A DNA stretch of 48,920 nucleotides from Deinococcales bacterium. GTDB taxonomy: Bacteria > Deinococcota > Deinococci > Deinococcales > JAAFIG01. Positions 1 through 48,920 of the stretch are shown piece after piece. Location of the stretch: assembly GCA_013298595.1 (NCBI GenBank), contig JAAFIG010000034.1:1-48920 (forward strand). The letters are read 5' to 3'. Numbering within the stretch: the first letter of the stretch is position 1; each line of letters opens with the position of its first letter. Made by a program: the position numbers and the translations under genes. The notes under the pieces were generated by a model. The model worked only from the letters and a program-made list of their open reading frames with translations, had not been told where the DNA came from and did not search any database.

Positions 1-1020
1 ACACATGCCGAAAATTTGTTAATCGAGGCTCGAGTTTCACGTCCGACAGAGGCTTCCATTCAGTTAAATCGTTTGTATTTTGCCGAAGGCATGTTTGCTT
101 TTGCTGGTGCAGATTTTGCTAGTGCTAAAGATTGGTTTTTACAGATAGATGGTGTTTTTGATGAGTTTGACCAACCACGTCTCAAAGCTTACTTAGCTGA
201 AATTGCACGGCGTGAAGGTAGTTTAACGCGTGCTTTAGTCAGCGAACTTGTTGAAGTTGTTCATAAATCAGGGCATTCTTTGGCGTTAGTACTTGAGGTG
301 AACATTTTGCAGGGTTTATATCAAGAGTGCATTCGTCGTAATTGGTATCCAGAAGTATTTCAAGAATTAACAAGTTCTGTTTTTATCGAGGATGCTGTTT
401 TGTTAGAAGTTGATTTATTCGCAAAGCCAAAATTTCTTGTTGCAAAAGTGCCTATTAAAATTCCGTTAGCAAAATCTCGAGAATTGCTTGCTTGGTCTGT
501 GCTGAACGGTGCTGGCACTCGAGATGAAATTGTGCAAGCTTTGTGGGGCGATGTTACAAATAAACGTAATCTCGAGTATTTCAAAATTGCTTTGCGTAAA
601 TTACGAGCTTCGTTGTATGAAAGCCCAAGTCTCACGTTTGACCCAATACTATTTGAAAATGGTGCCTATGTTTTGCACCCACGTTTGCAAGTACTGTGTG
701 TTGCGAAAAACATTTTGGATGCTCGAGATGATTTCCCCTCAGATATTGCTGTGCTCGAGTCATTGTTTCTTGGGTATAAAGGCGTATTTTTAAGTGGTAT
801 AGATTCGCCGTGGGTTGTAGAAATGCGTCAAGTTTTACTGGATGTTGTCGTGAGTATCGGCGAGCAACTTGGTTTATTGTTGCTCGAGTCGGATGTATTT
901 AAAGCTATTCGGATTTTTAAGCGTGTACTCGAGTTGGATGCTTTGTCCGATGTTGCTTTGTGTGGTTTACAAAGTCAGGTGCGTGTGCCACTAAATGCAG
1001 AGGCTCGAGTGCTGGCGTAA
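1..1020 (+). CDS. SARP/BTAD-type transcriptional regulator, C-terminal part (5' end outside window)
   Basis: The frame is open from the first base, with no credible start, so the N-terminus lies outside the window. The first ~150 residues look helical and TPR-like. Residues from about 155 (RELLAWSVLNGAGTRDEIV, then ALWGD and later YFKIALRKLRASL) look like an OmpR-type winged helix. The remainder (GYKGVFLSGIDSPWV, then a helical tail with RVLELD) fits a bacterial transcriptional activation domain. That domain order is typical of SARP/AfsR-like regulators, which bind DNA and activate nearby genes. The target is unknown; it may lie upstream. The stop is immediately followed by the convergent end of the M50 protease gene. 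Family call moderately sure; function inferred. Confidence 0.65.
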   Translation, partial: THAENLLIEARVSRPTEASIQLNRLYFAEGMFAFAGADFASAKDWFLQIDGVFDEFDQPRLKAYLAEIARREGSLTRALVSELVEVVHKSGHSLALVLEVNILQGLYQECIRRNWYPEVFQELTSSVFIEDAVLLEVDLFAKPKFLVAKVPIKIPLAKSRELLAWSVLNGAGTRDEIVQALWGDVTNKRNLEYFKIALRKLRASLYESPSLTFDPILFENGAYVLHPRLQVLCVAKNILDARDDFPSDIAVLESLFLGYKGVFLSGIDSPWVVEMRQVLLDVVVSIGEQLGLLLLESDVFKAIRIFKRVLELDALSDVALCGLQSQVRVPLNAEARVLA

Positions 1021-1701
1021 TCACATCAGAAATTGCAGTAAAAATGTTTGCACCGCTCGAATGATTGCCCAAATATATTGATTGCCAAGTATCATCACCA
1101 CAATTAATACTGCACCCATACTAAAAATTTGGGTGTTAAATAATTTGCCAAAAAAAGTTGGCTCGAGTGCACCAAGTGCATGACCACCATCAAGCGGTGG
1201 GATTGGTATGGCATTGAACACCGCTAACATGATGTTTTGTAGTAATAATTGCCCAAGAAATAACACTGCCCAATCTGGCAAGGCGTTACTCGAGAAACCA
1301 AAGCCTGCTATTTGCACGTTTTCGTAGATGGGTGTATTGGTAATTTCGATATTCAGTAATTTGATGCTGATAGCTGCAATCAGTGCCAAGGCAAGGTTCA
1401 TAACAATCCCTGCCATGGATACCACCACACTGCCGAGTACTGGGTTGCGGTATTTATCTGGTCGGGTTTGTACCATACCAAGCCAGCCAAAGCCAACAAT
1501 CACAAATAAGAAAATCCCAATCCCACTGAGGTACCGCAACGGATTCCAATCAAATCGCCCATTTTTGGTTGGCGTATCGTCGCCCTGCCAAATGGCTGCC
1601 AGCGCATGACCGTATTCGTGAATGACCACAGAAATCAGTAATGCCAGCACCCAAATACCACTCGAGATTGGGTCGGTGCGGAAATTCTCGAGGATATTCA
1701 A
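1021..1701 (-). CDS. Site-2 protease family (M50) membrane metalloprotease
   Basis: This 226-residue integral membrane protein has the zinc-binding HEYGH motif at residues 28-32 inside the first hydrophobic segment. It also has the second M50 motif PPLDGGHAL near residue 170, which supplies the third zinc ligand. Four or more further hydrophobic segments are visible. There is no PDZ domain, so it belongs to the short, widespread M50 group rather than RseP type. Such enzymes cut substrates within the membrane; the substrate here is unknown. The start is TTG, preceded by AAAGGTGA, and it overlaps the UbiD stop (TTGA), so translation is probably coupled to the upstream decarboxylase gene. Confidence 0.85.
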   Translation of the reverse strand: MNILENFRTDPISSGIWVLALLISVVIHEYGHALAAIWQGDDTPTKNGRFDWNPLRYLSGIGIFLFVIVGFGWLGMVQTRPDKYRNPVLGSVVVSMAGIVMNLALALIAAISIKLLNIEITNTPIYENVQIAGFGFSSNALPDWAVLFLGQLLLQNIMLAVFNAIPIPPLDGGHALGALEPTFFGKLFNTQIFSMGAVLIVVMILGNQYIWAIIRAVQTFLLQFLM

Positions 1702-3551
1702 AGTTCACCTTTGGGTTTGCGTTTATGACCTGTGGGTGATTTTGGTTTTGCCATACCAATATTGTACTCGTCCCAGCGGTTATCTACGCGTTCAACAATT
1801 TCGGGATTCATAACAATTTTTGGAGGCCAAATTCGTGTGAAACCTTCTTCAGCAATTTTTCTCGAGCCATCCAGCACTAATACATTGCCAGTTGCGCCTA
1901 AAACAATACTCGAGTCGCGTTCTGGGTCTATGTTGTTGAGAAGTGTCCAAAAAGCATCTTCTGCATCGAACACATCGGTTTCGTCGTCCACAATAGCAAT
2001 CAGGCGAATGCCAGATGCTTCGGGTGTGCTGGCTAAGAATGTACCAAGCTCGAGTCCTTGGTGTGCTCTGGTTTTTTGTAAACTCACCCACCAAATCCCA
2101 CCACCTGCTTGGCTTTGCTCAAGGATGCCTTCGTGTTGTGGCAAGTTGTCTCGAGGTGGAGCGGGTGCCCAAGGGGTGGGGTTGCCTTCCTCCCATGTTT
2201 TGATGGTGCCATCAAGAATCAGTTTGCTGCCATAACTCCATTCGCGGCTCGAGTGGTCGAGCACATCGGTTGGACCTTTGGTAAACACGGTGTCGCGTCC
2301 GGGTTCGCAATGTAACAGTGCCTGATGCCAAAACTCGAGGTTATTTTGTGGTTTGGCTGCTCCAGCATCGCAAACAATCGCTACTTTGGTAAACATCGCT
2401 TGTCCTAGTCCAAACATGCCATTTGCCACTTTGTAGGCATGACCAGGATAGGCTTTTTTGATGGTTACATTGACCAAATTATGGGCAATACCGCAAGGTG
2501 GCAAATGATAATCGGCAATTTCGGGCAATATTAACTGCGCGGGTACTAAAAAAATTCGTTCGGTTGTTTCGATCATAAACGCATCTTCCATTGGTGGACG
2601 ACCAACAATGGTGGCAGGATAGACCGCGTTCCGCCGCATGGTGATAGCAGTGACATGAAACAACGGATACAAATCCTCGAGGGTATAAAACCCCGTATGA
2701 TCGCCAAACGGACCTTCTGTTACCCAATCTTCGGTTGGGTCTATGTAACCCTCGAGAATAAATTCGGCATTGGCTGGAACTTCTAAACTGACAGTAATAC
2801 CCTTAACCACTTCTTGGCTTTTACCGCGTAAAAACCCTGTCAAACTGTACTCGTTAATGCCCGGTACAGGTGGAATCGGCGCAGTCGCCGCGTAAATCAA
2901 GGCAGGATCGCCACCAATTGCCACGGCGACCTCGAGTTTTTTGCCTAGTTTCTTGGCTTTCTCGAGATGTTTTGCTCCTGTTTTATGGCGTTGCCAGTGC
3001 ATACCAGTGGTGTTTTTACTCATCACTTGCATGCGGTACATACCCATGTTCATTTCGCCTGTTTCGGGATCGTTGGTAATGACCAGTGGCAGGGTAACAA
3101 ACGGACCACCATCTAAACCCCAGCATTTGAGCACAGGAATTTTATTTAAATCCACTTCATCGCCACGCCAAATAATTTCTTGGGAAACCCCTGTTCGCAC
3201 CCGTTTTGGCGGTAAAGCAATCAGTTCTTTGAGTTTGGGTACATTGCTCAGTAACCCTAAAATACCCCCACCCAATTTAATATCCAGCAATTTCCGCAAC
3301 CGATTTGGAATATCCTCGAGGTCTTGGACACCTAGCGACCATGCCATGCGTTGCCGAGTTGCCATTAAGCCAATGGCAACAGGAAAATCCTTGCCTATCA
3401 CATGTTCAAATAGCACCGCAGGACCACCCGATTTCATCAACCGATCAGCGATCTCAGTAATCTCGAGTTCATGCGATACAGGCGCGGTAACACGAACCAA
3501 TTCCCCTTTTTGCTCGAGGAAACGAATAAAGGCTTGGACATCTGTAAACAT
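1698..3551 (-). CDS. ubiD: UbiD-family prenylated-FMN-dependent decarboxylase
   Basis: This 617-residue protein matches the UbiD family. It shows the prFMN-binding region GMYRMQVMSKNTTGMHWQRH (residues ~170-190), IDPTEDWVTEGPFGDHTGFY (catalytic Glu/Asp region) and a long C-terminal domain. UbiD enzymes decarboxylate aromatic or alpha,beta-unsaturated acids in the cytoplasm; the closest housekeeping role would be menaquinone/ubiquinone synthesis. It is longer than E. coli UbiD (about 497 residues), with an extended C-terminus. A TAAGCT -10 box (3563-3558) lies 6 nt before the ATG, consistent with a leaderless transcript. No UbiX partner is in the window. Family sure; substrate inferred. Confidence 0.85.
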   Translation of the reverse strand: MFTDVQAFIRFLEQKGELVRVTAPVSHELEITEIADRLMKSGGPAVLFEHVIGKDFPVAIGLMATRQRMAWSLGVQDLEDIPNRLRKLLDIKLGGGILGLLSNVPKLKELIALPPKRVRTGVSQEIIWRGDEVDLNKIPVLKCWGLDGGPFVTLPLVITNDPETGEMNMGMYRMQVMSKNTTGMHWQRHKTGAKHLEKAKKLGKKLEVAVAIGGDPALIYAATAPIPPVPGINEYSLTGFLRGKSQEVVKGITVSLEVPANAEFILEGYIDPTEDWVTEGPFGDHTGFYTLEDLYPLFHVTAITMRRNAVYPATIVGRPPMEDAFMIETTERIFLVPAQLILPEIADYHLPPCGIAHNLVNVTIKKAYPGHAYKVANGMFGLGQAMFTKVAIVCDAGAAKPQNNLEFWHQALLHCEPGRDTVFTKGPTDVLDHSSREWSYGSKLILDGTIKTWEEGNPTPWAPAPPRDNLPQHEGILEQSQAGGGIWWVSLQKTRAHQGLELGTFLASTPEASGIRLIAIVDDETDVFDAEDAFWTLLNNIDPERDSSIVLGATGNVLVLDGSRKIAEEGFTRIWPPKIVMNPEIVERVDNRWDEYNIGMAKPKSPTGHKRKPKGEL

Positions 3552-4902: not shown

Positions 4903-4922
4903 TAACCCTTCACAGTAAACAA

Positions 4923-10611: not shown

Positions 10612-12642
10612 TCAAACGTCTACCTTAGCAAACACTGCGTTTTCTTCAATAAATAAACGGCGTGGTGCAACTTCTTGTCCCATTAAATCACTAAAGCATT
10701 CGTTTGCTTCGAGTGCATTGGCAATCGTGACTTGTTTCATGCTGCGGGTGGTTGGGTCGAGTGTGGTTTCCCAGAGTTGCTCGGCGTTCATTTCACCGAG
10801 ACCTTTGTATCGTTGAATCGAGATATTGGTTTTATCGCTGAGTTCTTCTAAACGTTTTTTCAGAGCTTCGTCATTGAAGATATATTCGCCTTTGCGTCCG
10901 ATGGATAATCTGTACAATGGCGGTTGGGCAATGTACAAGTAACCAGCTTCGATAATGGGGCGTAAGAAACGGTAGAAGAAAGTCATGAGTAGCACCGAGA
11001 TATGGCTACCGTCCACATCGGCATCGGTCATGATAACAATACGGTGATAACGCACGTTGGCAAGATCAAAATGGGCATTATCGCCTGTGCCTTGCACACC
11101 AGCGCCAATAGCAGCAATCATGCTACGAATTTCAGTGTTTTTGAGAATCTGCGTGATCTGTGCGCGTTCAACATTCAGTACCTTACCGCGCAAAGGCAAG
11201 ACAGCTTGGAATTTCTTATCTCGAGCACCTTTGGCAGTTCCACCTGCGGAGTTACCTTCGACCAGTAACAACTCGGATTCAGCAGGGTCAGAACTTTGGC
11301 AATCAGATAACTTACCCGGTAAATCATCATTCTCGAGCGGATTTTGCCGACGTACCAAATCTTTGGCTTTACGGGCAGCATCTCTGGCTCGAGCCGCATC
11401 GGCAGCTTTTTCGGCAATGGTTTTACCAATTTTTGGGTTAGCATCTAAGTACTCAGCGAGTTTGTCTGAAACCACACGGCTAACAGCCATTTGCGCTTCT
11501 GGGTTAAGCAATTTAATTTTGGCATTTGATTCAAATTGTGGATCGCCAAGTTGCACACTGACCACAACATTTAAACCCTCGAGCCAATCATCGCCGATGG
11601 GTTCGACAGCCCCTTGTTTAAGGATGTTTTTGTCTTTGAGGTATTTGTTGAGAATACGTGTGTAAGCGGTGCGAAAACCTGTCATGTGGGTACCGTGGTC
11701 GCGGTTGGTAATCATGTTGGCATAAGCAAGTAAATTGGGGGTGTAACCAGTGCTGTGCACTAAGCCAACTTCAACTTTGATACCATCGTGTGAACCACTG
11801 AGTAAAACTGGTTGATCGTAGAGCAGTTTGTCGTCACCAACAAGGCTACGGGCATAGGCAGCAACGCCACCTTTTTCAAAGAAAGTTTCGGTTTTGTGGT
11901 GCCCATCGCGTTCGTCGGTCAGGATAATGGTTGTACCGCCAACCAAAAATGATAATTCTCGCAAACGACGACGAATCCGTGGGTAATCCCAGTGGGTTTC
12001 GATATCTTTGAATACAACAGGATCTGGTTTGAAACTAACAGCCGAGCCGTTACGACCAGCTTCGTTCGTACCAACAATATGCAGTGGTTCGGTCAGGACT
12101 CCACTTTCAAAACCAATGCGGTACATATCTTTGCCTTTGCGAATATCTACCCGCAAAAAAAGCGATAAGGCATTGACCACTTTGGCACCAACGCCGTGCA
12201 AACCACCAGAAACCTTATAGGCACCATCGTCGAATTTACCACCAGCGTGTAAATCGGTGAACGTCACTTCAACAGCTGGGCGACCACCTTCAGATGCCAT
12301 GGCATCCACTGGAAAACCACGTCCGTTATCGGTAATGGTGACCGATTCGTCTTTATGGATAGTCACCGTTACTGTATCGGCAAATTTGGCTTGTACTTCG
12401 TCTATGGCGTTATCAAGAATTTCTGATAGCAACTGATGGAAACCGTCAACGCCTGTACCACCTTGCAAGTACATACCTGGGCGCTTACGAACACCATCTA
12501 AGCCTTTTAAAACTTTGATGTTGTCGGCGGTGTAATTAGCAGAGCCTTCTTGTAACTCGGCTTCTGAGAGCGGGATATCTTCAATGATTTCCTCGAGTGG
12601 AATTTGATTCTCGAGTGAGTTTTGGTTGCTGTCATCTAACAT
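10612..12642 (-). CDS. gyrB: DNA gyrase subunit B
   Basis: This 676-residue type IIA topoisomerase ATPase subunit has GHKL motifs ([34 protein letters not shown]), the transducer domain, TOPRIM metal site [10 protein letters not shown] / MTDADVDG, and the C-terminal [17 protein letters not shown] typical of GyrB rather than ParE. With GyrA (not in the window) it introduces negative supercoils. I chose the ATG at 12642 (MLDDSNQN, preceded by ACGAGGAAAAG). Upstream in-frame TTG/GTG starts would overlap the promoter at 12706-12735. The first ~30 residues are an acidic extension. Only about six CTCGAG sites occur in 2 kb, clearly below the local norm. Confidence 0.95.
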
Positions 12643-12705
12643 CTTTTCCTCGTTTCTGATTTTTTCTCGTGACGTGCGATTTTTGAGCATTTTGCCCAAC
12701 ACAGA

Positions 12706-12735
12706 ATCATACTCTAAAAAGACACTTCGGGTCAA
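12706..12735 (-). promoter_or_regulatory. gyrB promoter
   Basis: On the minus strand TTGACC (12735-12730) and TATGAT (12711-12706) are 18 bases apart, close to the housekeeping sigma consensus. The resulting leader of about 55-60 nt carries a Shine-Dalgarno sequence, unlike most starts in this window. Confidence 0.7.
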
Positions 12736-12856: not shown

Positions 12857-14341
12857 TTAGAGTAAATTTAGCCAAACCGTTTTGATTTCCGTGTAATGCT
12901 CGAGTGCATAACTACCCATTTCGCGTCCGATACCGCTTTGCTTAAAACCACCCCACGGCATGGCAGCCTCGAGCATACCGTAGCCATTAACCCAAACCGT
13001 ACCAGCTTTGAGTTGGTGTGCCATGCGAATACCTGCTTTGATATCACTTGTCCAAATTCCAGCCCCTAAACCGTACTGGCTACTGTTCGCTCGGCGGATT
13101 AAATCCTCGGTATCAGTGTATTCGAGCACAGTTAACACAGGTGCAAAGACTTCATCTCGGGCAATCTCGAGTGTATCGGTCGCTTTGTAAATGGTTGGCT
13201 CGAGAAAATACCCATTTATGCCATGTTGTTTACCACCCGTTATCAGTTCAGCACCATCGGCAGTGGCACGTTGCAAAAACCCTTGGACTCGCTCGAGATG
13301 TTGGCTCGAGATCAGCGGACCCATTTGCGTGCTAGGGTCTAAACCAACGCCCAGCACAATCTGTTCGGCTCGAGATTTCAGGGCTGCCAGAACCTCGGCA
13401 CTTTGTGACGCATGAACAAATAATCGGCTACCTGCCACGCAAGCTTCGCCTTGATTAAAAAACATGGCGGTCATTGCCCCTTCGACAGCTTGGTGTAAAT
13501 CTGCATCGGGCAAAATAATATTTGGGCTTTTACCACCTAACTCGAGCGTAATGCGCTTAAAATCTTGGCTGGCTACCTGCATGATTTCTCGTCCGACTCG
13601 AGGACTACCTGTAAATGAAACTTTATTAACCAATGGATGCCGTACCAATGCCGCACCTGCCTCGAGTCCAGTACCGACAATCACATTGATTGCCCCCGCT
13701 GGGAAACCTGCTTCTCGAGCCAGTTCAGCCAGCCAAAGAGCAGTTAGTGGTGTTAATTCCGAGGGTTTAAGCACCACAGCATTACCACAAGCCAGTGCTG
13801 GTGCAAGTTTCCAACACGCAATTGCCAACGGAAAATTCCACGGTGTGATGGCTGCCACCACGCCCACAGGTTCGCGGCGAGTGTACGCCAATGCCTCGCC
13901 AGGCAGGCTGCTTGGAATACTCTGCCCATACAATTTGGTTGCCCAACCAGCAAAGTAACGCAGATGCTCGACAGCTTGTGGCACATCAAACACCAATGTC
14001 TCGAGCAAAGGCTTACCGACATCTAAACTCTCGAGTTCTTGTGCTATTTGGCTGCGTTTCTCGAGTAAATCGGCTAAACGCCATAGCAAACGCCCGCGTT
14101 CGGCTGGTGTGGTTGCCCCCCATGTGCCTTGTAAAGCTCGAGAAGCAGCTTGCACGGCTTTGTCTACATCACCAAGGCTGGCACTTGCCACCTGACAGAT
14201 TTCCGCGCCTGTAGCAGGGTCAAGCACCGCGATTCTCGAGCCATCCAAGTTATCCACAAGAGCATTGTTGATAAATAACAACTTTGGCTGCTCGAGCCAA
14301 GATAGTGTTGCTGCGGATAAAAGTTCTGCGTGTGGGATCAT
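12857..14341 (-). CDS. NAD(P)-dependent aldehyde dehydrogenase
   Basis: This 494-residue cytoplasmic enzyme of the ALDH superfamily oxidises an aldehyde to its acid. Visible motifs are TPWNFPLAIACWKLAPALACGN (cofactor site), SFTGSPRVG, the general-base region LELGGKSPNI and the nucleophile Cys in FFNQGEACVAGSR. The C-terminal PWGGFKQSGIGRE is typical of betaine-aldehyde or phenylacetaldehyde-type members. The substrate is not deducible. The start is the ATG at 14341: TACACT (14353-14348) lies 6 nt before it, while the longer reading frame upstream has no supporting signal. Transcribed divergently from the radical SAM gene. Confidence 0.9.
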   Translation of the reverse strand: MIPHAELLSAATLSWLEQPKLLFINNALVDNLDGSRIAVLDPATGAEICQVASASLGDVDKAVQAASRALQGTWGATTPAERGRLLWRLADLLEKRSQIAQELESLDVGKPLLETLVFDVPQAVEHLRYFAGWATKLYGQSIPSSLPGEALAYTRREPVGVVAAITPWNFPLAIACWKLAPALACGNAVVLKPSELTPLTALWLAELAREAGFPAGAINVIVGTGLEAGAALVRHPLVNKVSFTGSPRVGREIMQVASQDFKRITLELGGKSPNIILPDADLHQAVEGAMTAMFFNQGEACVAGSRLFVHASQSAEVLAALKSRAEQIVLGVGLDPSTQMGPLISSQHLERVQGFLQRATADGAELITGGKQHGINGYFLEPTIYKATDTLEIARDEVFAPVLTVLEYTDTEDLIRRANSSQYGLGAGIWTSDIKAGIRMAHQLKAGTVWVNGYGMLEAAMPWGGFKQSGIGREMGSYALEHYTEIKTVWLNLL

Positions 14342-14347
14342 GGTCAT

Positions 14348-14417
14348 AGTGTACGGGAGAATGATAAGCTGAACGAATACGTCAACAATAAAATGATAAC
14401 ACAAAATCTGTTAACAT
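14348..14417. promoter_or_regulatory. Divergent leaderless promoters (ALDH / radical SAM)
   Basis: In this 82-base intergenic region TACACT on the minus strand (14353-14348) stands 6 nt from the ALDH ATG. TAACAT on the plus strand (14412-14417) stands 6 nt from the radical SAM ATG. No clear -35 hexamers or SD sequences were found. Confidence 0.55.
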
Positions 14418-14423: not shown

Positions 14424-15497
14424 ATGAAACCCCAAGCCACACCAAACCACACAGGACGAGGCTCGAGTTTCAACCCCCAAAACCGTTTTGAACAAACCCA
14501 CATCGAATTCGACCCACTGGACGACCACCTCGAGCACCAAGAAATCACCAGACCACGCACCCAATACTTCAAAGATTCAAGCCGCAGCATTTTGTCGTAT
14601 AACACCTCGCCAGACATTCCATTCGAGGTTGGACTCAGCCCATATCGCGGCTGCGAACACGGATGCAGTTACTGTTTTGCTCGTCCTTATCACGAATATC
14701 TGGGTTTCTCGAGTGGCTTGGATTTTGAAAGTAAAATCATGGTCAAGTTCGATGCGCCAACATTACTGCACCAAGAACTCAGTGCCAAACGTTACGAACC
14801 AAAAATCATCACCATGAGCGCCATCACCGATATTTACCAACCACTCGAGCAAAAACTCAAAATCACTCGAGAATGCTTAAAAGTACTGCTCGAGTTTAGG
14901 CAACCCGTGGTTATCATCACCAAAAATCATTTGGTCACACGAGATATCGATTTGCTCCAAGAACTCGCTAAGTACAACTGCATCAGTGTTGCCATTTCTT
15001 TAACCACACTCTCCAACGAATTACGCCTCAAACTCGAGCCGCGTACCTCGAGTCCAGAACGGCGTTTAGCTGCAATTTGCGCCTTAGCCGAAGCGGGCGT
15101 TCCTGTGGGCGTAATGACCGCACCTGTTATTCCTGGTTTAACCGATCACGAATTACCAAGTTTAATCGAAGCTGCTACCCAAGCAGGTGCAAGTTGGGCA
15201 GGATACACCATGCTGCGATTACCATACGCTGTTAAAGATATTTTTCTGGCATGGCTCGAGCAACATGTGCCAGACCGCGCACAAAAAATCATTCATCGCA
15301 TCGAAGATATTCGCGGTGGCAAACTCAACAACAGCGATTTTGGCTCGAGAATGCGAGGACAAGGAATTTTTGCCGAGCAAATCAACAAATTATTCAAAGC
15401 TGCTCTGAAAAAAAGCGGTTTACTCGAGCGAGAAAGAATCCGATTAAGTACAGCGCATTTCCGAATTCCAACAGGGCAAGCAGGATTATTTGATTAG
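14424..15497 (+). CDS. PA0069-like radical SAM protein (spore photoproduct lyase-like)
   Basis: This 357-residue protein has the 4Fe-4S binding motif CEHGCSYC (residues 75-82) followed by FARPYHEYLGFSSGLDFE, the signature of the PA0069/Rv2578c family of radical SAM enzymes distantly related to spore photoproduct lyase. The TIM-barrel part includes VIITKNHLVTRDIDLL and ISLTTLSNELRLKLEPRTSS. These proteins are presumed to act in nucleic-acid repair or modification, but the reaction is unproven. The start is leaderless-type (TAACAT 6 nt upstream). The stop overlaps the convergent SUKH-like gene by four bases. Confidence 0.85.
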   Translation: MKPQATPNHTGRGSSFNPQNRFEQTHIEFDPLDDHLEHQEITRPRTQYFKDSSRSILSYNTSPDIPFEVGLSPYRGCEHGCSYCFARPYHEYLGFSSGLDFESKIMVKFDAPTLLHQELSAKRYEPKIITMSAITDIYQPLEQKLKITRECLKVLLEFRQPVVIITKNHLVTRDIDLLQELAKYNCISVAISLTTLSNELRLKLEPRTSSPERRLAAICALAEAGVPVGVMTAPVIPGLTDHELPSLIEAATQAGASWAGYTMLRLPYAVKDIFLAWLEQHVPDRAQKIIHRIEDIRGGKLNNSDFGSRMRGQGIFAEQINKLFKAALKKSGLLERERIRLSTAHFRIPTGQAGLFD

Positions 15498-16369: not shown

Positions 16370-19300
16370 ATGCCCGATAACCCCGCCACACTAAATCACA
16401 ACCTTGAGACAACACTAAAGCCTCGGCGTTTTGCACATTTGCATCAACACACGCAGTACAGCTTGTTGGATGGTGCAGCTCGAGTCAAGGATTTGCTCAA
16501 ATGGGTGGCAAAAACCAGTCCTGAAAACCCAACCCTCGCCATGACCGACCACGGCAATATGCACGGTGCAGTGCAGTTTTTTAAGTACGCTCAGGACGCT
16601 GGTGTCAAACCCATTATTGGCTACGAAGCGTATGTTTCGGCTGGCTCGAGATTTGATCGGATTCAACGCCGAGATGTGGATGGTGGGTACTATCATTTAA
16701 CGTTGCTGGCAAAGGATTTTAAGGGGTATCAGAACTTGTGTAAGCTTGCCAGTATTGCGTATCTCGAGGGGTTTTATCAAAAACCTCGGATTGACCGAGA
16801 AGTATTGGCTTTGCACCGAGAAGGCATTATTGCCATGAGCGGCTGCCTTGGTGCTGAGGTGCCAAATATGATTCTCAATGATCGGCTCGAGGATGCCGAG
16901 GAGCGCCTGAAATGGTACTTAGCAACCTTTGGTGACGATTACTACATTGAAATCCAAAATCATGGTTTGCCAGAGCAACAAAAAGTCAATCCTGTCTTAA
17001 AAGCATGGGCTACTAAGTACGGTATTGGTATGGTTGCCACCAACGACGGGCATTATGTGCGTCACGAAGATGCGTATGCTCACGAAGTTTTGCTGGCTAT
17101 TCAAACCAAAGCTTTGATGTCCGAAGAAAAACGATTCAAATTTTCGTGCGACGAATTCTATGTTAAATCCCAAGTCGAAATGGAAAAACTGCTTCCCTCG
17201 AGCGAATGGGGCGATCAGATTTATGACAACAGCATGGAAATTGCCAGTAAATGCAATCTCGAGTTACCGATTGGTTCTAAACGTGTGTACCAAATGCCTG
17301 CTTTGCCGATTCCTGAGGGGCGCACCATGGCAGAAGAGCTTCGGGTGCAAGTTTACCGAGGCACAGTGCAACGCTATCCAAAAGAATTTACCCTCGAGTT
17401 ATTACACGAATACGCCGCACTTTCCCTCGAGAAATTAGACAGTGCAACTCGAGAAAAGGTTTTATCCCGAACCGTAGGGGCGGGGCTTGCCTCGCCCTTG
17501 CCCAAGGGTGATGTAGTTCAGGGCGACCATAAAGGTCGCCCCTACGAAAAACGTGTTGAAAACTTGCATCTCGAGGATACGATTTTACTCTTGGCTTTTA
17601 TGGGCGAAATTTGGCTCGAGCAGTCAAAAGATCAGAAGTACACGCAGTACGTGGCATTGGATGCACTCGAGGCAGATGAAGCTGCTGTTTCAAGGTTGGG
17701 ACAAAGTTTGGTGGTGTTGCGTCGGGCGGAGTACGAACTTGGTGTGATTATTCGCATGGGTTTCCCAGATTACTTTTTGATTGTGGCAGATTTTATTAAT
17801 TGGGCGAAGGATCATGGGATTCGGGTTGGTCCTGGGCGTGGTTCAGGTGCGGGTAGTTTGGTGGCGTTTGCGTTGCGGATTACCAATCTTGATCCGATTG
17901 GCTATGGTTTGTTGTTCGAGCGTTTTTTGAACCCTGATCGTGTTTCGATGCCTGATTTTGATGTGGATTTTTCTGATACGCGGCGTAACGAAGTGATTAA
18001 TTATGTGCGTGATAAATACGGCGACGATAAAGTTGCCATGATTGCCACTTACGGAACCATGTCAAGTCGAGCTTGTTTTAAGGATGTGGCTCGAGTGCTG
18101 GAATTACCTTTTGCCGAAGCCGATAAACTCTCGAAACTTGTGCCAGTGGTGTTTGGCAGAGCACTCAGTCTTGAAGCTGCTGAAGAAGCTGTACCTGATA
18201 TCAAAGCGATGCTCGAGGCGAATCCCGAAACTCGTAAAGTGTACGAAATTGCAAAAAATCTTGAGGGGTTAACGCGTCACTCGAGTATTCATGCGTCTGG
18301 TGTGGTGATTGGTCGTGAACGCTTGGATAATATCGTGCCGCTGATGCGTGGTGGCTCGGATGAAGGTGTGGTTTGTCAGTTTGACATGAACAGTGTTGAA
18401 GATATTGGTTTAATTAAAATGGATTTTCTTGGGCTTCGCACCTTGTCTTTTCTCGAGGAAGCTGTGCGGATTATTCAAGAATCTAAAGGTGTTAGCCTCG
18501 AGCCAGATGATTTTCCACTTGATGATGTGAAAACCTATGAACTTGTCTCGAGGGGTGAAACCAAAGGGGTTTTTCAACTCGAGGGTGGTGGGATCACCGA
18601 TGCAGCACGCAAATTAAAACCTCGTCGCATCGAAGATATCAACGCGTTATCGGCGTTGTATCGCCCTGGTCCGATGGAGAATATCCCTGCCTATATCGAA
18701 CGGCATCATGGGCGCGAACAAGTGCGTTATGACCAAGGCGAATTTAACTTACCGAAATGCGAACCGTTGTTGCGTCCGATTCTCGAGGAAACTTACGGCA
18801 TTCCAGTTTACCAAGAGCAAATTATGCAGATTGCTTCCGCAATTGCAGGTTATACGTTAGGGCAAGCAGATTTGCTGCGTAGGGCAATGGGTAAGAAAAA
18901 AGTTGAAGAAATGGAAAAGGAACGCGTGAAATTTGTCGCGGGTGCTAAAACAGTGCATGGCATCCCCGAGGATGAATCTGCTCGTTTGTTCGGTATCCTC
19001 GAGAAGTTTGCTAATTACGGTTTTAATAAGAGCCACAGCGCCGCTTACGCATTTATTTCATTTCAGACAGCCTACATTAAAGCGCATTTTCCTGTTGAAT
19101 TTATGGCAGCACTGTTAACTGTCGAACGCCGAAATTCTGATAAGGTCGCCGAGTATATTTCCGATGCTCGTCAAACCAAACTCGAGCATGGCGAGTTAAT
19201 GCAGGTGTTACCGCCTGATATTAACCGCTCGAGTACCGACTTTAAGGTGGTTGGTGAGCAGATTTTGTTTGGTTTGTACGCAGTGAAATCCTTGGGTGAA

Positions 19301-20353
19301 GAAACCGCCAATGCGATTCTCGAGGAGCGTGAAAAAGCGGGTGTGTTTAAATCCTTAGCCGATTTTTGCTCGAGGTTGCAACATACTGGTTTGAATAAGC
19401 GTTGGATTGAATTTTTGGTTAAATCTGGTGCATTTGACGCTTTTGGTGCTCGGGAAGCTTTACTCGAGAGTGTTGAAGAAGCCATCGAATTTGCTAATGG
19501 TCAGGCGGATATGAATTCGCAAGGTATGGATAGTTTATTTGGCATGGCGACCATTGCGCCTGAACCAAAATTAAAAGTGATTGCACCACCCAAAGATGAA
19601 GAAGAAACTCGGGCTAGAGCTATTGCGCGTTTACAATTTGAAAAAGAAGCCGTGGGTTTGTACATTAGCGGACATCCACTCGAGCATTACCCTGGAATGC
19701 TCGAGGCGGCATCAACTAAGGTTGCTCAGGCAGAGTTGTGGTTTCATACCTCGAGTGCGCCTGTGGGTTATCGTGGGCGTAAACGGGCGGTACTGGCTGG
19801 CATGATTAGTGGGGTGCAACGTAAACCCACCAAATCAGGTGGCATGATGGCACGGTTTATTCTCACCGATGATGCTGGTGCTGCCGAACTGGTGGCGTTT
19901 AGTAGGGCTTACGATAAAATCAGTGAAAAATTGATTGAGGATAGCCCTGCCTTGGTGGTCGTGGAAATCGAACCTGATGGCGAAGAAGGTGTGCGTGTCA
20001 CAGTCGAAGAATTACTGCCGTACTCCGAAGCCAAGGATATGCCAAAAACCTTGGCACTCGAGATGAACCTGAATATGCTTGAGCCAACCATGCTTTCGCA
20101 CTTGGATGAAATGCTCCAAATGCAAGATGGTATTGCCAATATCCCAATTCATCTTCGTTTAATTGGTGATGATGCTTTTGAGATTTGGGAATTAACCCAT
20201 AAAGCCACCGATGCAACATTGCAACGCCTCAAACTCGAGTGTCCGTGGCTGAAAGTGGGTATGGGAATTAGTGGCGAAGCGGTGCTGGCAAAAACCATGC
20301 CAGCGAAAAAACCGTGGGAAGGTAAACCAAAAGAAGCTCGAGCGATGAACTAA
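16370..20353 (+). CDS. dnaE: DNA polymerase III alpha subunit
   Basis: This 1,327-residue replicative polymerase has an N-terminal PHP domain with metal ligands apparently intact (HLHQHTQYSLLDG, MTDHGNMHG, ATNDGHYV). The palm has catalytic aspartates in PDFDVDFSD (from residue 528) and GPGRGSGAGSLVAFAL just before it. Then follow fingers with YRPGPMENIPAYIERHHG and NYGFNKSHSAAYA, and a C-terminal OB/tau-binding region. E. coli DnaE is 1,160 residues. Residues 368-393 are encoded by an inserted palindromic repeat (17473-17546) without loss of frame. TAACAT lies 6 nt before the ATG (leaderless type). cruF starts one base after the stop. Confidence 0.96.
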   Translation: MPDNPATLNHNLETTLKPRRFAHLHQHTQYSLLDGAARVKDLLKWVAKTSPENPTLAMTDHGNMHGAVQFFKYAQDAGVKPIIGYEAYVSAGSRFDRIQRRDVDGGYYHLTLLAKDFKGYQNLCKLASIAYLEGFYQKPRIDREVLALHREGIIAMSGCLGAEVPNMILNDRLEDAEERLKWYLATFGDDYYIEIQNHGLPEQQKVNPVLKAWATKYGIGMVATNDGHYVRHEDAYAHEVLLAIQTKALMSEEKRFKFSCDEFYVKSQVEMEKLLPSSEWGDQIYDNSMEIASKCNLELPIGSKRVYQMPALPIPEGRTMAEELRVQVYRGTVQRYPKEFTLELLHEYAALSLEKLDSATREKVLSRTVGAGLASPLPKGDVVQGDHKGRPYEKRVENLHLEDTILLLAFMGEIWLEQSKDQKYTQYVALDALEADEAAVSRLGQSLVVLRRAEYELGVIIRMGFPDYFLIVADFINWAKDHGIRVGPGRGSGAGSLVAFALRITNLDPIGYGLLFERFLNPDRVSMPDFDVDFSDTRRNEVINYVRDKYGDDKVAMIATYGTMSSRACFKDVARVLELPFAEADKLSKLVPVVFGRALSLEAAEEAVPDIKAMLEANPETRKVYEIAKNLEGLTRHSSIHASGVVIGRERLDNIVPLMRGGSDEGVVCQFDMNSVEDIGLIKMDFLGLRTLSFLEEAVRIIQESKGVSLEPDDFPLDDVKTYELVSRGETKGVFQLEGGGITDAARKLKPRRIEDINALSALYRPGPMENIPAYIERHHGREQVRYDQGEFNLPKCEPLLRPILEETYGIPVYQEQIMQIASAIAGYTLGQADLLRRAMGKKKVEEMEKERVKFVAGAKTVHGIPEDESARLFGILEKFANYGFNKSHSAAYAFISFQTAYIKAHFPVEFMAALLTVERRNSDKVAEYISDARQTKLEHGELMQVLPPDINRSSTDFKVVGEQILFGLYAVKSLGEETANAILEEREKAGVFKSLADFCSRLQHTGLNKRWIEFLVKSGAFDAFGAREALLESVEEAIEFANGQADMNSQGMDSLFGMATIAPEPKLKVIAPPKDEEETRARAIARLQFEKEAVGLYISGHPLEHYPGMLEAASTKVAQAELWFHTSSAPVGYRGRKRAVLAGMISGVQRKPTKSGGMMARFILTDDAGAAELVAFSRAYDKISEKLIEDSPALVVVEIEPDGEEGVRVTVEELLPYSEAKDMPKTLALEMNLNMLEPTMLSHLDEMLQMQDGIANIPIHLRLIGDDAFEIWELTHKATDATLQRLKLECPWLKVGMGISGEAVLAKTMPAKKPWEGKPKEARAMN
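17473..17546. repeat. Palindromic (REP/MITE-like) repeat inserted in dnaE
   Basis: This 74-base element has perfect 10-bp terminal inverted repeats, CGTAGGGGCG and CGCCCCTACG. Inside are three hairpins: GGGCG / CGCCC, CCCTTG-CC-CAAGGG and GGGCGACC / GGTCGCCC. It is read through in frame as GAGLASPLPKGD ... GDHKGRPY, a peptide type produced by related dispersed repeats in many bacteria. A shorter relative is at 9336-9375. Confidence 0.85.
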
Positions 20354-25702: not shown

Positions 25703-25918
25703 ATGACCATGCAACCCGGTGATCTGATTCTTGAAATTATAGGCAAACCCCAAACCCCACTGTGCATACCCGGTGCCAGCAAAACAGAAATCTGGTCAGA
25801 TGCCCGAATTGGCGATGCCAGTTTACACATTCGACTCGAGCAAAATACTGTTGTCAGTAACATCCTCGAGTATTTACTCAGCAAAGGTTTTACACCCATT
25901 GGTGCCAGAACAATTTAA
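25703..25918 (+). CDS. Small protein of unknown function
   Basis: This 71-residue protein starts at the ATG at 25703, which has GCGAGGTGA as ribosome binding site. Sequence: GDLILEIIGKPQTPLCIPGA, then DASLHIRLEQNTVVSNILEY, ending in ARTI. It contains one Cys and a Gly/Pro-rich start, and no family is recognised. A weak promoter candidate is TTGGTT (25656) - 18 bp - TACAAA (25680). It is divergent from the LysR gene and so a possible target of it. The stop overlaps the convergent membrane protein gene by four bases. Confidence 0.5.
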   Translation: MTMQPGDLILEIIGKPQTPLCIPGASKTEIWSDARIGDASLHIRLEQNTVVSNILEYLLSKGFTPIGARTI

Positions 25919-26142
25919 GCTTTGTCCTTACTTTGCTGTAATTCAATGAATACAGCATTTTTAACACCTTCTCCAAAAAAAACAATTCCTGCATTAAATA
26001 CACAAAGCGCTAATGTACCGTACCAAAACCACGGCTCATTGGCGCTTTTAGCTCGAGCCGCATCAGAAATTAAGCTGATACCAAAGCCAATTAAACTTAA
26101 ACCAAGTGGCGAGAAGAATAACCATTTTACTCGAGGGGTCAT
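25915..26142 (-). CDS. Small two-helix membrane protein
   Basis: This 75-residue protein has two predicted membrane segments (WLFFSPLGLSLIGFGISLI and WYGTLALCVFNAGIVFFGE) joined by a short Lys/Ala-rich loop, with a charged C-terminus. No family is recognised. The gene is supported by a TACATT box (26154-26149) exactly 6 nt before the ATG. Confidence 0.55.
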   Translation of the reverse strand: MTPRVKWLFFSPLGLSLIGFGISLISDAARAKSANEPWFWYGTLALCVFNAGIVFFGEGVKNAVFIELQQSKDKA

Positions 26143-26238
26143 GTGCTTAATGTACTCGAATAATCGTGTCTATACGTGGTTTTGGCGCACAAGGTTTCAA
26201 TGAGATTTCTTTCATCTGGGGTTTTATAAACTGCCCAA

Positions 26239-27687
26239 ATGGAATCAGAAATACTTACTCAACCACCACTCGAGAAAACTTCTTTGCCCCGTTTAGCATG
26301 GTGGATTATTGCAATCGCTACAGGTTTTGGTTTACTTGGTAGTTGGTTACTCAATGCCAAATGGGGATTAAACATTGCCCTTTGGATGATGGCATTTGTA
26401 GCAGTGCTGCTCTGGTTTGTACAGCGCTTTTCCTTGCCACAGCAAACCCGCTGGCTTTGGGGTTTTGCCTTGGTTTTTGCTGGTTTTTTTGTTTGGCATA
26501 ACTCGAGTTCATTGCGTTTTTATAACAGTATGGCACTCTGGATTGCTTTGGGTTTAGGGTTTGCTTTTGCTAAACCTGGTTTGCGTGGCACGGGTTTTTT
26601 TGCCTTGCTTTTGGCTTGGTGTGAGTCTTTGCTACAAACGCTATTTGGTTGGATTCCGTTTTTGCTACAAGATTTTCCGTGGCAAAAAATCAGTCTGCCC
26701 AATTTGCAACGCTACCTCCCAATTGCTCGAGGTTTACTGATTACGGTGCCCTTATTACTGGTTTTTGCAGCCATGCTCTCGAGCGCCGATGCTGCTTTTT
26801 CAGCTTTACTACAAAAAGTTTTTTCGCTAAGCATTCCTAATGCCGACGAACTGCTGTGGTGGTTGATTCGTTTTGCTTTTATTGCAGGGACTGTGCTTGG
26901 GGTAATACGACTGATGGTACTTGGGCATAAAACAGTGTACCTACAAACACCTATGCAAATTGGAGTTACAGAACTGAGCATGGCATTAGGTGCACTCAAC
27001 TTTTTATTCGCTACTTTTATCCTGATTCAACTGGGTTACTTTTTTGGTGGACAAAGCCAAATCACAGCTCTAACAGGGTTAACGTATGCCGATTATGCCC
27101 GCAAAGGCTTTAACGAATTATTACAAGTTGTAGCACTTGCCTTTCCAGTTTTAATTGTGGCTTTGCATTGCAGTACAGCAGATGCTCGAGCCACCCGAAA
27201 TGTGCGCTGGTTATCGTATATCACTTTGGTTTTACTGGGCATTATGTTGTTTTCTTCGTGGCAACGCTTAGCTTTGTACCGCCAAGCGTATGGCTTAACC
27301 GAGATCCGATTTTATACAGCTGTGGTTTTAATCTGGTTTTTTTGTATCCTGATTTGGTATGCCATTAGTGCACTACAAGCCCGGTACTCGAGTTTTGTGC
27401 TTGGTGTTTTGCTCAGTGGTTTTCTGACACTTGGTGTGGTTAATTTCCTCAACCCAAATGCCTATATTGTTCGGTATAACTTAGCGCAAAAAACCGAATT
27501 TGATCTCGAGTATGCTTTAACACTTGGTACAGATGCCATTGCGCCATTGCTTGAGTACAGTCAATTTTCGCCTCTGCAACAAAAGCAACTCGAGGCAGCC
27601 CACAAGGAAATGATGCTTAACCCGAGCGGTTGGGATTGGCGCAGTTGGAATTGGTCTGTGGCACAAGCTATTGCGCTGTATAAATAA
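26239..27687 (+). CDS. DUF4173-like polytopic membrane protein
   Basis: This 482-residue protein has about ten or more hydrophobic segments. The middle (GLLITVPLLLVFAAMLSSAD, then AFSALL and a later LNFLFATFILIQLGYFFGG) matches the DUF4173/DUF4153 style of inner-membrane proteins. The C-terminus is cytoplasmic or periplasmic and short. No catalytic residues are apparent and the function is unknown. TAAACT (26227-26232) lies 6 nt before the ATG. The gene runs convergently into the SRP RNA gene. Confidence 0.7.
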   Translation: MESEILTQPPLEKTSLPRLAWWIIAIATGFGLLGSWLLNAKWGLNIALWMMAFVAVLLWFVQRFSLPQQTRWLWGFALVFAGFFVWHNSSSLRFYNSMALWIALGLGFAFAKPGLRGTGFFALLLAWCESLLQTLFGWIPFLLQDFPWQKISLPNLQRYLPIARGLLITVPLLLVFAAMLSSADAAFSALLQKVFSLSIPNADELLWWLIRFAFIAGTVLGVIRLMVLGHKTVYLQTPMQIGVTELSMALGALNFLFATFILIQLGYFFGGQSQITALTGLTYADYARKGFNELLQVVALAFPVLIVALHCSTADARATRNVRWLSYITLVLLGIMLFSSWQRLALYRQAYGLTEIRFYTAVVLIWFFCILIWYAISALQARYSSFVLGVLLSGFLTLGVVNFLNPNAYIVRYNLAQKTEFDLEYALTLGTDAIAPLLEYSQFSPLQQKQLEAAHKEMMLNPSGWDWRSWNWSVAQAIALYK

Positions 27688-27692
27688 AAAGT

Positions 27693-27795
27693 GCGTCATC
27701 GGTGAGTAATGGCACCTAATGGGCATCCCTTAAAGCTGCTTCCTTCCGGATCTGACTTGGTTCGAGAGCCATCACCGCATTACGCCGATGACGCG
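27693..27795 (-). ncRNA. ffs: 4.5S signal recognition particle RNA (small bacterial type)
   Basis: The minus-strand transcript is closed by a perfect 10-bp terminal stem, CCGATGACGC (27794-27785) with GCGTCATCGG (27702-27693). Its tip carries the conserved SRP domain IV sequence GTCAGATCCGGAAGGAAGCA around 27735-27762, with the GGAA tetraloop and asymmetric internal loop that bind Ffh. The length of about 103 nt is the short type without an Alu domain. A consensus promoter precedes it (27802-27830), and ACTTTTTATTT directly after the stem can act as a terminator. SRP RNA with Ffh targets nascent membrane proteins to FtsY/SecYEG. Confidence 0.95.
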
Positions 27796-27801
27796 GGCAG
27801 G

Positions 27802-27830
27802 AGTATACGCTTTAGCGCGAACCGATGCAA
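27802..27830 (-). promoter_or_regulatory. ffs promoter
   Basis: On the minus strand TTGCAT (27830-27825) and TATACT (27807-27802) are separated by exactly 17 bases, placing the transcription start 6-7 nt downstream at the base of the SRP RNA terminal stem. The divergent GNAT gene has its own TAGAAT box at 27837-27842. Confidence 0.8.
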
Positions 27831-27848
27831 CTGTTTTAGAATAACCCC

Positions 27849-28379
27849 ATGACTGTTGCAACCCATAGCTTAGAGTTGCGTCCGATGCTCGAGATGCAGC
27901 CTCGAGATTGGGCACAATTTTACAGATATTTTCGGGATAAAGAAATTGCACAGTTAAATGGTGCAAGCCCAATTTTTATGCCACTGTGGTTGTTCAAACG
28001 AATTGTTATTGGAGAAGAAAAAAGTGGTGAAAGAATCGGTTTAGCTATTTATCTCGAGCAAGTTTTTATTGGCAGTATCGAACTCTACGATATTGTTGAA
28101 TTTCCAAAATCAGCCGTGCTTGGGATTTTACTTGGTGATAAAAAAATATGGGGTATGGGGTATGGAACACAAGCACTTCGTGCTGCGCTGACCTTTGCTT
28201 TTGTAAATAAAAGTTTTCAGCGTATCACACTACAAACACTCGAGGATAATCTGCGAGCACGCAAAAGTTTTGAACGAGTTGGCTTTCGTTTTTATGGAAC
28301 AACTGATGCAGGAAAACGCCGCTTTGCCCATTATGAATTAACAAAAAATTCATGGCTTGAATTGCAGCAAAAAATATAA
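27849..28379 (+). CDS. GNAT N-acetyltransferase (RimJ/RimL-like)
   Basis: This 176-residue protein of the GNAT fold has the acetyl-CoA binding loop in ILLGDKKIWGMGYGTQALRAA (variant of Q/RxxGxG/A) followed by FQRITLQTLEDNLRARKSFERVGF, typical of RimJ/RimL-type acetyltransferases acting on protein N-termini or small amines. The acceptor is unknown. TAGAAT (27837-27842) is 6 nt upstream of the ATG; the promoter region is shared back-to-back with ffs. Confidence 0.85.
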   Translation: MTVATHSLELRPMLEMQPRDWAQFYRYFRDKEIAQLNGASPIFMPLWLFKRIVIGEEKSGERIGLAIYLEQVFIGSIELYDIVEFPKSAVLGILLGDKKIWGMGYGTQALRAALTFAFVNKSFQRITLQTLEDNLRARKSFERVGFRFYGTTDAGKRRFAHYELTKNSWLELQQKI

Positions 28380-28609: not shown

Positions 28610-28743
28610 CTCTTTGGTGCTGACTTCCAGTAAACCCCTACATATAGTTGTTCAACCGCAATGCGCGGGTCGGGTTGTATCCTCCGAACGCGCAGTGTTT
28701 TTTGGAATCAGTACGTTGACTCATCCAAAAGGGGGTGAATAAC
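28610..28743 (+). promoter_or_regulatory. Structured 5' leader of the histone-like gene
   Basis: About 130 untranslated bases contain a hairpin TGCGCG / CGCGCA (28662-28667 with 28689-28694). A second hairpin, TTTTGGA / TCCAAAA (28700-28706 with 28724-28730), ends exactly where the Shine-Dalgarno GGGGGTG begins. Such placement could modulate translation. Long leaders are exceptional in this window. Confidence 0.45.
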
Positions 28744-29160
28744 ATGGCAGAAAAAACACCTGCTGCAAAACCAGCTGCGAAAGCCGCTGCTAAACCAGCC
28801 GCCAAAAAAGCCGCTGCTAAACCAGCCGCCAAAAAAGCCACTGCAACTGCGAAAGCAACACCAGTGAAGACAGCTGCTAAACCAGCCGCCAAGAAAGCCG
28901 CTGCTAAACCAGCCGCTAAGAAAGCTGCTGCTAAACCAGCCGCTAAGAAAGCTGCTGCTAAACCAGCCGCTAAGAAAGCTGCTGCTAAACCAGCCGCCAA
29001 GAAAGCTGCTGCTAAACCAGCCGCCAAGAAAGCTGCTGCTAAACCAGCCGCCAAGAAAGCTGCTGCTAAACCAGCCGCTAAGAAAGCTGCTGCTAAACCA
29101 GCCGCCAAAGCCGCTAAGCCAGCTGCGAAAGCCGCTAAACCAGCCGCTAAGAAAGCTTAA
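28744..29160 (+). CDS. Lys/Ala/Pro-rich histone H1-like DNA-binding protein
   Basis: This 138-residue, extremely basic, low-complexity protein is made almost entirely of Ala, Lys and Pro. After MAEKTPAAKPAAK come about nine copies of a 9-residue unit (consensus AKPAAKKAA) encoded by a 27-bp tandem DNA repeat, with one interruption (ATATAKATPVKTA). This resembles the C-terminal tail of eukaryotic histone H1 and bacterial H1-like or HU-tail proteins, which compact DNA without a folded domain. The start is fixed by GGGGGTG 8 nt upstream. It has an elaborate promoter and leader and no CTCGAG. Strong expression is inferred. Repeat number may vary between strains. Confidence 0.8.
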   Translation: MAEKTPAAKPAAKAAAKPAAKKAAAKPAAKKATATAKATPVKTAAKPAAKKAAAKPAAKKAAAKPAAKKAAAKPAAKKAAAKPAAKKAAAKPAAKKAAAKPAAKKAAAKPAAKKAAAKPAAKAAKPAAKAAKPAAKKA

Positions 29161-33270: not shown

Positions 33271-33331
33271 AGCCTAAAGTATAAGCTTCTGCATTTTGCA
33301 AAACGTATAAAAATGTATTTTGGAGTTGACC

Positions 33332-33825
33332 ATGAAAGCAAAACCCATGCCAGAATCATACTTTGCCAATATTTCAAAGCAGCCACTCGTGTTAAAACCA
33401 TTTGACCTAAACAGTAAAAAACAAGCTCTCGAGTACTGCCAGTAACTCAGGCAACTCTTGTCACCTTTTGAAGTACTGAACTGCATGGCTCGACGAAACT
33501 GGAAATTGTTGGTAAAGGCGAATGGGAATTTGCTCTTTGGCTCGAGGATACAAATTGGTACAGTGTGATTGTTTTTTTGATCAATCAGTATAAATCCATT
33601 TTTGTGCTCGATGACGAATTTGTTTTGTTTACAGATGGTGATACCGAAATTATTGGTATGCGAGGCGAAGTCGCAACCCGTAACAAAGCACTAATGAATT
33701 ATTGGCGTACCAATGCCACGGTTCGAGCCGAGTACGCAGAAGGAAAATTAGCCCATGCGTACTCGAGACAAGCTTATTACCGTTGGAAAGATGCTTTGAT
33801 AAATTCTATCCTCGAGCATTTATGA
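33332..33825 (+). pseudogene. Disrupted gene of unknown family (stop plus frameshift)
   Basis: Starting at the ATG at 33332 (TGGAG upstream), 37 codons (MKAKPMPESYFANISKQ...) end at TAA 33443. The same frame continues as LRQLLSPFEVLN. After a shift of frame near 33480 a long open stretch runs to 33825 (LHGSTKLEIVGKGEWEFALW, ...DDEFVLFTDGDTEI..., RQAYYRWKDALINSILEHL). Joined, these would give one protein of about 160 residues. Family not recognised. Either a true pseudogene or an assembly error; the last six bases overlap the convergent aldo/keto reductase gene. Confidence 0.55.
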
Positions 33826-48721: not shown

Positions 48722-48766
48722 CCCAGATGACACACGACCCCAGCCCTTCTCGAGTAGACTGCTGGC

Positions 48767-48920
48767 ATGTTTGATCGGATTTCGCCAACAGAAGCTAAAA
48801 GTCGTCTCGAGCAAGGTGCTGTGCTGATCGATGTGCGTGAACAAAACGAATGGGATGCCGCCCATGTCGCCAATGCCACACTGATTCCCTTATCAGAATT
48901 CAGCACCCGTTACACAGAAA
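48767..48920 (+). CDS. Rhodanese-like domain protein (3' end outside window)
   Basis: The first 51 codons are visible: MFDRISPTEAKSRLEQGAVL, then IDVREQNEWDAAHVANATLI and PLSEF. This is the start of a rhodanese/sulfurtransferase fold (LIDVRE...EW...H...A..IP). The catalytic Cys loop lies beyond the window edge. TAGACT (48755-48760) is exactly 6 nt before the ATG. Confidence 0.85.
   Translation, partial: MFDRISPTEAKSRLEQGAVLIDVREQNEWDAAHVANATLIPLSEFSTRYTE

Follow-up and report, generated by a model that had tools for sequence, protein, structure and literature searches.

In the Deinococcales bacterium whose contig JAAFIG010000034.1 is described here, the hexamer CTCGAG belongs to the HIP class of highly iterated palindromes, and the genome behaves as if it were near saturation with this word. 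The stretch analysed, referred to as the window, comprises 48,920 bases (45% GC) and represents contig 28 of a genome of 4,582,226 bases, designated G000. It contains 318 exact copies of CTCGAG, the first at position 29 and the last at 48806-48811, as compared to 9.5 copies expected from base composition, corresponding to a 33-fold excess. The mean density is 6.5 per kb, with 1-kb bins spanning 3 to 11, and thus lower than the approximately nine per kb given in a first-pass annotation of the window, whose count of nine copies in the first 1,020 bases is reproduced by our recount. No other palindromic hexamer comes near these numbers, the next commonest being TTGCAA with 38 copies. An order-4 Markov model predicts 268 copies and is uninformative, because CTCGAG itself accounts for almost every CTCGA and TCGAG of the window.

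The excess extends over the whole genome and is not confined to the window, nor are genome-wide counts near Markov expectation: G000 harbours 27,159 copies of CTCGAG (5.93 per kb) as compared to 15 of the reversed word GAGCTC, and the ratio of observed to expected counts (O/E) is 31 by base composition. Apart from whole-genome pattern counts, statistics for this genome rest on 911 kb at most (20%); coding regions are mechanical open reading frames (ORFs), and most genomes compared are metagenome-assembled genomes (MAGs). For 473 kb of predicted coding DNA, a null model preserving amino acids and synonymous codon use, the latter taken outside CTCGAG sites, predicts 104 copies, whereas 2,919 are observed (O/E 28 overall; 39, 16 and 30 by frame). 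GAGCTC is absent from the same DNA, with 53.6 copies expected. Between genes, CTCGAG reaches 5.5-5.7 per kb and an O/E of 33.6. Since enrichment against the codon null holds in all frames and extends to intergenic DNA, codon or peptide preference is excluded as the cause, in agreement with the first-pass annotation, which had placed the word in every reading frame and considered such a preference insufficient.

Saturation is evident at Leu-Glu pairs. In G000, 68.1% of 3,935 such pairs are spelled CTCGAG, whereas codon use elsewhere predicts 1.6%; occupancy is 64% at frame-1-permissive and 38% at frame-2-permissive positions. For comparison we surveyed 111 genomes of the phylum, bearing in mind that statistics across genomes ignore kinship. 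These include the members of the own family f1 (G000-G003), genus g11 of a second family f2 (G012 and G016), Meiothermus (g13), Trueperaceae (f3) and a genus g7, which we infer to be Thermus. Occupancy of Leu-Glu pairs amounts to 65-73% in family members and 75-88% in genus g11, as compared to 24% in Thermus-like DNA (29% expected) and 10% in the near relative G004 (16% expected). Moreover, no dipeptide of G000 is more strongly over-represented than Leu-Glu (O/E 2.34, rank 1 of 325), which likewise ranks first in G001-G003, G012 and G008 (O/E 1.9-2.45). It is third in Meiothermus (O/E 1.59) and ordinary in G004 (1.11), Thermus-like genomes (1.08) and family f4 (1.06), while ten loci of other phyla are low (0.80). 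Thus, the drive towards CTCGAG is strong enough to alter amino acids. Within the window, copies and Leu-Glu pairs are distributed as follows:

29 to 48811, no strand: CTCGAG copies over the whole window, 318 in coding and intergenic DNA and in all reading frames, 3-11 per kb.
16 to 1020, plus strand: ORF with the nine copies counted in the first-pass annotation, five in frame 1 and four in frame 0.
10612 to 12735, minus strand: gyrB, of lower density, with six copies from 10675 on (2.9 per kb); CTCGAG spells 4 of 7 Leu-Glu pairs.
12857 to 14404, minus strand: aldehyde dehydrogenase gene, 17 copies (11 per kb); 11 of 12 Leu-Glu pairs.
14424 to 15497, plus strand: ORF, 11 copies (10.2 per kb); 6 of 6 Leu-Glu pairs.
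16370 to 20353, plus strand: dnaE (DNA polymerase III alpha), 32 copies; 21 of 26 Leu-Glu pairs.
25533 to 26238, no strand: intergenic, CTCGAG at 25835, 25865, 26052 and 26130.
27693 to 27791, minus strand: bacterial small signal recognition particle RNA, no copy; about 0.6 are expected, so that this is uninformative alone.
33271 to 33819, no strand: intergenic, CTCGAG at 33428, 33541, 33762 and 33811.

Individual sites do not appear to be singled out. In aligned orthologues of G000 and G001, CTCGAG is conserved in 75% of cases as compared to 24% for control hexamers. However, this raw difference vanishes once Leu-Glu is held constant, and site-specific maintenance was therefore rejected: where the dipeptide is conserved in both genomes, the probability of a site is 0.86 with and 0.76 without an orthologous site (Fisher p 0.45). 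Orthologues from G002 and G003 give a similar result; these tables are small (56-80 pairs), and weak site-specific conservation could escape them. One-difference neighbours are also scarcer than in controls when orthologues are compared (18% versus 41%), but this deficit was not counted, since codon usage alone shapes the distribution; among Leu-Glu pairs not spelled CTCGAG, 39% are one-off from it. The apparent conservation of sites is thus mostly saturation, and the drive consequently acts on the motif everywhere rather than at chosen places. Of the proposal that CTCGAG is an actively maintained site, the genome-wide drive on the motif remains, whereas maintenance of individual sites beyond saturation does not, and a role in chromosome organisation finds no positive evidence at individual sites.

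The spacing of copies points in the same direction. In coding DNA of G000, Leu-Glu occupancy is 26% when the nearest other copy is no more than 12 bp away, 44% for distances up to 18 bp and about 60% at 20-40 bp, and then stays flat at 75-78% between 50 and 200 bp. Beyond 50 bp a nearby copy therefore leaves the drive undiminished, unlike what a function requiring one site per kb would entail. The short-range drop recurs in G001-G003 and G012. It is seen only in coding DNA, close pairs between genes showing no depletion; a protein footprint, which would act in both, was therefore dropped as its cause, and avoidance of mRNA hairpins between palindrome copies appears to fit better.

Among relatives, the CTCGAG excess is a lineage feature. 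It is extreme in all four f1 genomes and in genus g11, with about 6-7.7 copies per kb and GAGCTC nearly absent: the three other f1 members contain 26,619-28,178 CTCGAG versus 4-9 GAGCTC, and the second family has 21,868 versus 25 and 14,690 versus 2. Intermediate excess is found in genera g8, g18 and g19, in Meiothermus (2.1 per kb, ratio 6) and in the Trueperaceae genus g27 (ratio 12), whereas neither the 27 Thermus-like genomes (ratio 1.1) nor G004 show any. Outside the phylum, a 7-Mb MAG labelled Myxococcota contains 18,912 CTCGAG versus 162 GAGCTC.

Two side observations may be added. Four viral contigs from IMG/VR (L319, L321, L325 and L327) carry CTCGAG at 7-16 times the dinucleotide expectation with few or no GAGCTC, and may represent phages or prophages whose hosts are rich in CTCGAG; a scan of IMG/VR for clustered copies returned, among the matches listed, mostly GC-rich chance matches. 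In addition, GAGCTC, TTCGAA, CCGCGG, GACGTC, GGCGCC, AGGCCT, CGGCCG and GGGCCC each occur zero times in 450 kb of G000 (121-258 expected, both strands), and GGCC occurs 22 times versus 2,361 expected. This set of missing palindromes, to which CTCGAG is the sole exception, is largely common to several genera and two families (also G001-G003 and G012), and as its cause one would most readily guess at several restriction systems, past or present.

CTCGAG is also the target of XhoI, and a link to methylation is suggested by the methylases of the phylum. An XhoI-family restriction endonuclease (REase; PF04555) occurs in 4 of the 111 genomes, namely G018, G031, G032 and, broken, G009; none was found in the other 107 genomes searched, including G000-G003, G012 and G016. 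In G018, G031 and G032 the REase is adjoined by an SPPY-type methylase, and these genomes have 0.7-1.0 CTCGAG per kb as compared to 1.65-1.97 per kb in sister genomes. In G009, the REase frame is interrupted by one TGA and one TAG (L139, G009:C1:1,095,688-1,096,226) and adjoins an intact 583-aa NPPY adenine methylase of a family designated A1; here the restriction half has apparently been lost, leaving an orphan methylase. Orthologues of this M.XhoI-like enzyme without REase are present in genus g19 and in four Meiothermus genomes, where the flanking genes encode an amidase and a Na/Ca exchanger. A second family, A2 (NPPF, about 550 aa, with an M.Eco57I-like C-terminal domain), is found in the remaining 14 Meiothermus genomes as well as in nine Trueperaceae. 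Hence, of 18 Meiothermus genomes 14 carry A2 only and four A1 only, whereas none carries both or neither, which represents 1 in 3,060 arrangements at fixed margins when kinship is ignored. This perfect complementarity suggests that A1 and A2 serve the same role and therefore probably share the same specificity. An in-place swap of A1 for A2 is unsupported, as the flanking genes differ, and an M.XhoI-like methylase as universal cause was dropped, as a clear orthologue exists in only 8 of the 111 genomes. The best support for the methylase link outside the phylum comes from the Myxococcota MAG, whose A2 enzyme is 51% identical to the query.

G000 itself encodes a candidate orphan C5 methylase at L074:7908-9038 beside an RlmKL-like gene, with orthologues in G001 (74% identity) and G012 (59%). 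Further candidates are a D12 adenine methylase at L024:17851-19017, an Eco57I-type methylase, a CcrM-like methylase, a PglX-like protein and a 432-aa methylase. Methylation of CTCGAG in G000 is plausible. The family possesses MutS, as found in G002. There is no indication of 5-methylcytosine at the inner C. Among one-off forms, TTCGAG/CTCGAA are commonest and CTTGAG/CTCAAG are high too (O/E 1.33 overall); between genes, CTTGAG, the product of C-to-T decay at the inner CpG, reaches 1.9 and is not strongly above TTCGAG, which reflects the outer C (1.66). As a separate observation, the gene for the 432-aa methylase lies in a 3.5-kb stretch free of CTCGAG (L072:1590-5147; G000:C66, about 77.6-81.1 kb) and was probably newly acquired; such gaps may serve as markers of recently acquired DNA.

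To account for these data we tentatively favour, while falling short of even confidence, a methylation-coupled repair drive that acts on CTCGAG and has brought the genome near saturation. A resident CTCGAG-specific DNA methyltransferase, usually without restriction partner, would mark the sites, and strand-directed mismatch repair would read the methyl mark. A replication error creating a site would become methylated and be kept, whereas an error destroying a site opposite the methylated parental strand would be corrected. The odds ratio of creation over loss would thereby range from tens to about 130, its natural logarithm being 3.0-4.9 in the own family. No individual function would be required of the sites, and the drive would act wherever the hexamer can arise, in any frame or gene. 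We favour this model because it explains the presence of the motif in every sequence context, its indifference to neighbours beyond 50 bp and the effects on proteins.

Several points weigh against this model. The methylation ratchet proposed by Elhai (2015) depends on methylated GC and should come to a halt near 1 site per kb (PMC4390886), a level that G000 has passed with 5.9 per kb. Genomes of Acidobacteria, Phycisphaerae and Bryobacterales with A2 homologues (52-53% identity) contain 1,462/973, 6,250/3,965 and 1,540/481 CTCGAG/GAGCTC, respectively, i.e. weak or no excess, and the A2 enzyme is therefore not sufficient. No A1 or A2 orthologue was found in G000, family f1 or genus g11, G002 having only a 191-bit A1 relative, and neither is present in genus g18, which has the excess. 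An association of methylases with the excess across the phylum (p about 1e-11 over genomes outside f1 and f2) turned out to be inflated by relatedness and was discarded; over 31 genera, presence of a methylase does not predict the excess (p = 0.19). Finally, the five or more methylases of G000 that might be tied to CTCGAG are candidates by sequence, and no orthologue of the C5 methylase was found in G002 or G003.

The main rival holds that selection favours each copy because a widespread DNA-binding protein, involved in nucleoid architecture, recombination or repair, binds to it; every copy would confer a small advantage, without biased repair. We regard it as rather unlikely, albeit as the most serious competitor. 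It would explain why density is equal in and between genes and why the excess has been kept over two families, and for an odds ratio of e^3-e^5 a scaled selection coefficient no larger than about 3-5 per site would suffice. Lower-density relatives also give a hint of diminishing returns, occupancy being 0.50 at 50-75 bp versus 0.63-0.66 beyond 100 bp. In G000, however, occupancy does not change between 50 and 200 bp, which argues against a need-limited function, and the restriction of the close-range deficit to coding DNA speaks against a DNA footprint and fits hairpin avoidance. Moreover, site-specific conservation is not seen in our small orthologue tables. It is because of saturation, flat occupancy and this lack of site conservation that we favour a per-site drive at the DNA level.

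We judge it improbable that CTCGAG is a DNA-uptake signal of a naturally competent lineage, which would be enriched because DNA carrying the tag is taken up and recombined in preference to other DNA. Natural transformation is known in Thermus and Deinococcus, and the uptake sequences of Haemophilus and Neisseria are likewise short words scattered genome-wide. Yet the uptake sequences described so far have greater length and much lower density (about 1 per kb in Haemophilus and Neisseria) and are non-palindromic or stem-forming. The Thermus-like relatives, which are expected to be competent, show no excess, there is no diminishing return at 6 per kb, and the Leu-Glu enrichment implies a protein cost. 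A point in favour is that uptake sequences are dense and genome-wide, too (PMC4390886).

Very-short-patch repair, in which a CTCGAG cytosine methylase together with a Vsr-like nuclease restores C:G from T:G and makes sites from CTTGAG, is highly improbable and was rejected. Such repair, carried out by Vsr with Dcm, is linked to methylation and shifts target-word frequencies in E. coli, but no Vsr (PF03852) was found in G000-G003, G012 and G016, and CTTGAG/CTCAAG, for which depletion is predicted, stand above expectation both overall and between genes. A compositional or codon by-product of Leu-Glu in preferred codons, to which GC-rich members of the phylum do owe part of their raw counts (as in the 29% expected occupancy of Thermus-like DNA), can practically be dismissed for G000 in view of an occupancy far above that expected, the enrichment in all frames and between genes, and the near absence of the mirrored GAGCTC.

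Two features of the window stand apart from this question. At 28735-29160 (plus strand), an alanine-lysine-proline repeat protein with AAKPAAKKA units is encoded by 27-bp tandem repeats; it resembles a histone H1-type nucleoid protein, and the opposite strand carries a misleading long ORF. In dnaE, an in-frame insert at about 17470-17570, starting with GTAGGGGCGGGGCTTGCC, belongs to a dispersed repeat with dozens of loci in G001, and the dnaE alignments of G002 and G003 break at this insert.

With respect to known systems, HIP1 (GCGATCGC) of cyanobacteria, named in the first-pass annotation as the only well-known parallel, is the right comparison: it is likewise a palindrome hugely over-represented genome-wide, in coding and non-coding DNA. 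The statement is too narrow, however, since alternate cyanobacterial HIPs of the same kind, GGCGCC, rCCGGy and GCsGC, have been described and tied to DNA methyltransferases (Elhai 2015, PMC4390886). HIPs are replaced by other palindromes in some relatives, and their one-off forms often differ at the first and last base (PMC4390886). CTCGAG differs in several respects. HIP1 occurs at 0.3-2.7 per kb, whereas CTCGAG in G000 shows no stop near 1 per kb; HIPs are found in sporadic strains of cyanobacteria, whereas CTCGAG is another sequence, occurs in Deinococcota and Myxococcota and spans families; and HIPs are tied to cognate methyltransferases, whereas for CTCGAG there are candidates in G000 and A1 or A2 in 18 of 18 Meiothermus. 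The XhoI and PaeR7I restriction-modification systems share the hexamer, and A1 is orthologous to the methylase beside the degraded REase of G009, but the REase is lacking in most genomes and sites are fewer where it is present. Chi and KOPS are over-represented short words as well, but they are oriented and non-palindromic, whereas CTCGAG cannot carry polarity. In the open-access literature searched (subscription papers lying outside its scope), we found no report of a CTCGAG palindrome or of any HIP outside cyanobacteria, in line with the earlier statement that no named counterpart is known. New here are the phyla, the motif, its density, the Leu-Glu saturation with its dipeptide effects, and the complementary pair of methylase families.

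Taken together, our data show that a drive on a DNA word can rewrite codon choice and dipeptide content proteome-wide, which bears on analyses of codon usage, phylogeny and selection in such genomes. To our knowledge, why HIP1 exists has been an unanswered question since 1995, and work on it has been confined to cyanobacteria. The system described here is denser, lies in other phyla and comes with graded relatives, i.e. none in Thermus-like genomes, a medium level in Meiothermus and saturation in the own family; together with two seemingly interchangeable methylase families in cultivable Meiothermus, it makes the methylase hypothesis directly testable. Somewhat more tentatively than the model for this genome itself, we propose that a self-reinforcing methylation-coupled repair drive, rather than selection for site function, may have saturated genomes in at least two phyla and altered their proteins, and that different, non-orthologous methylases may power it. 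If true, HIPs would represent a general drive phenomenon and not a cyanobacterial peculiarity.

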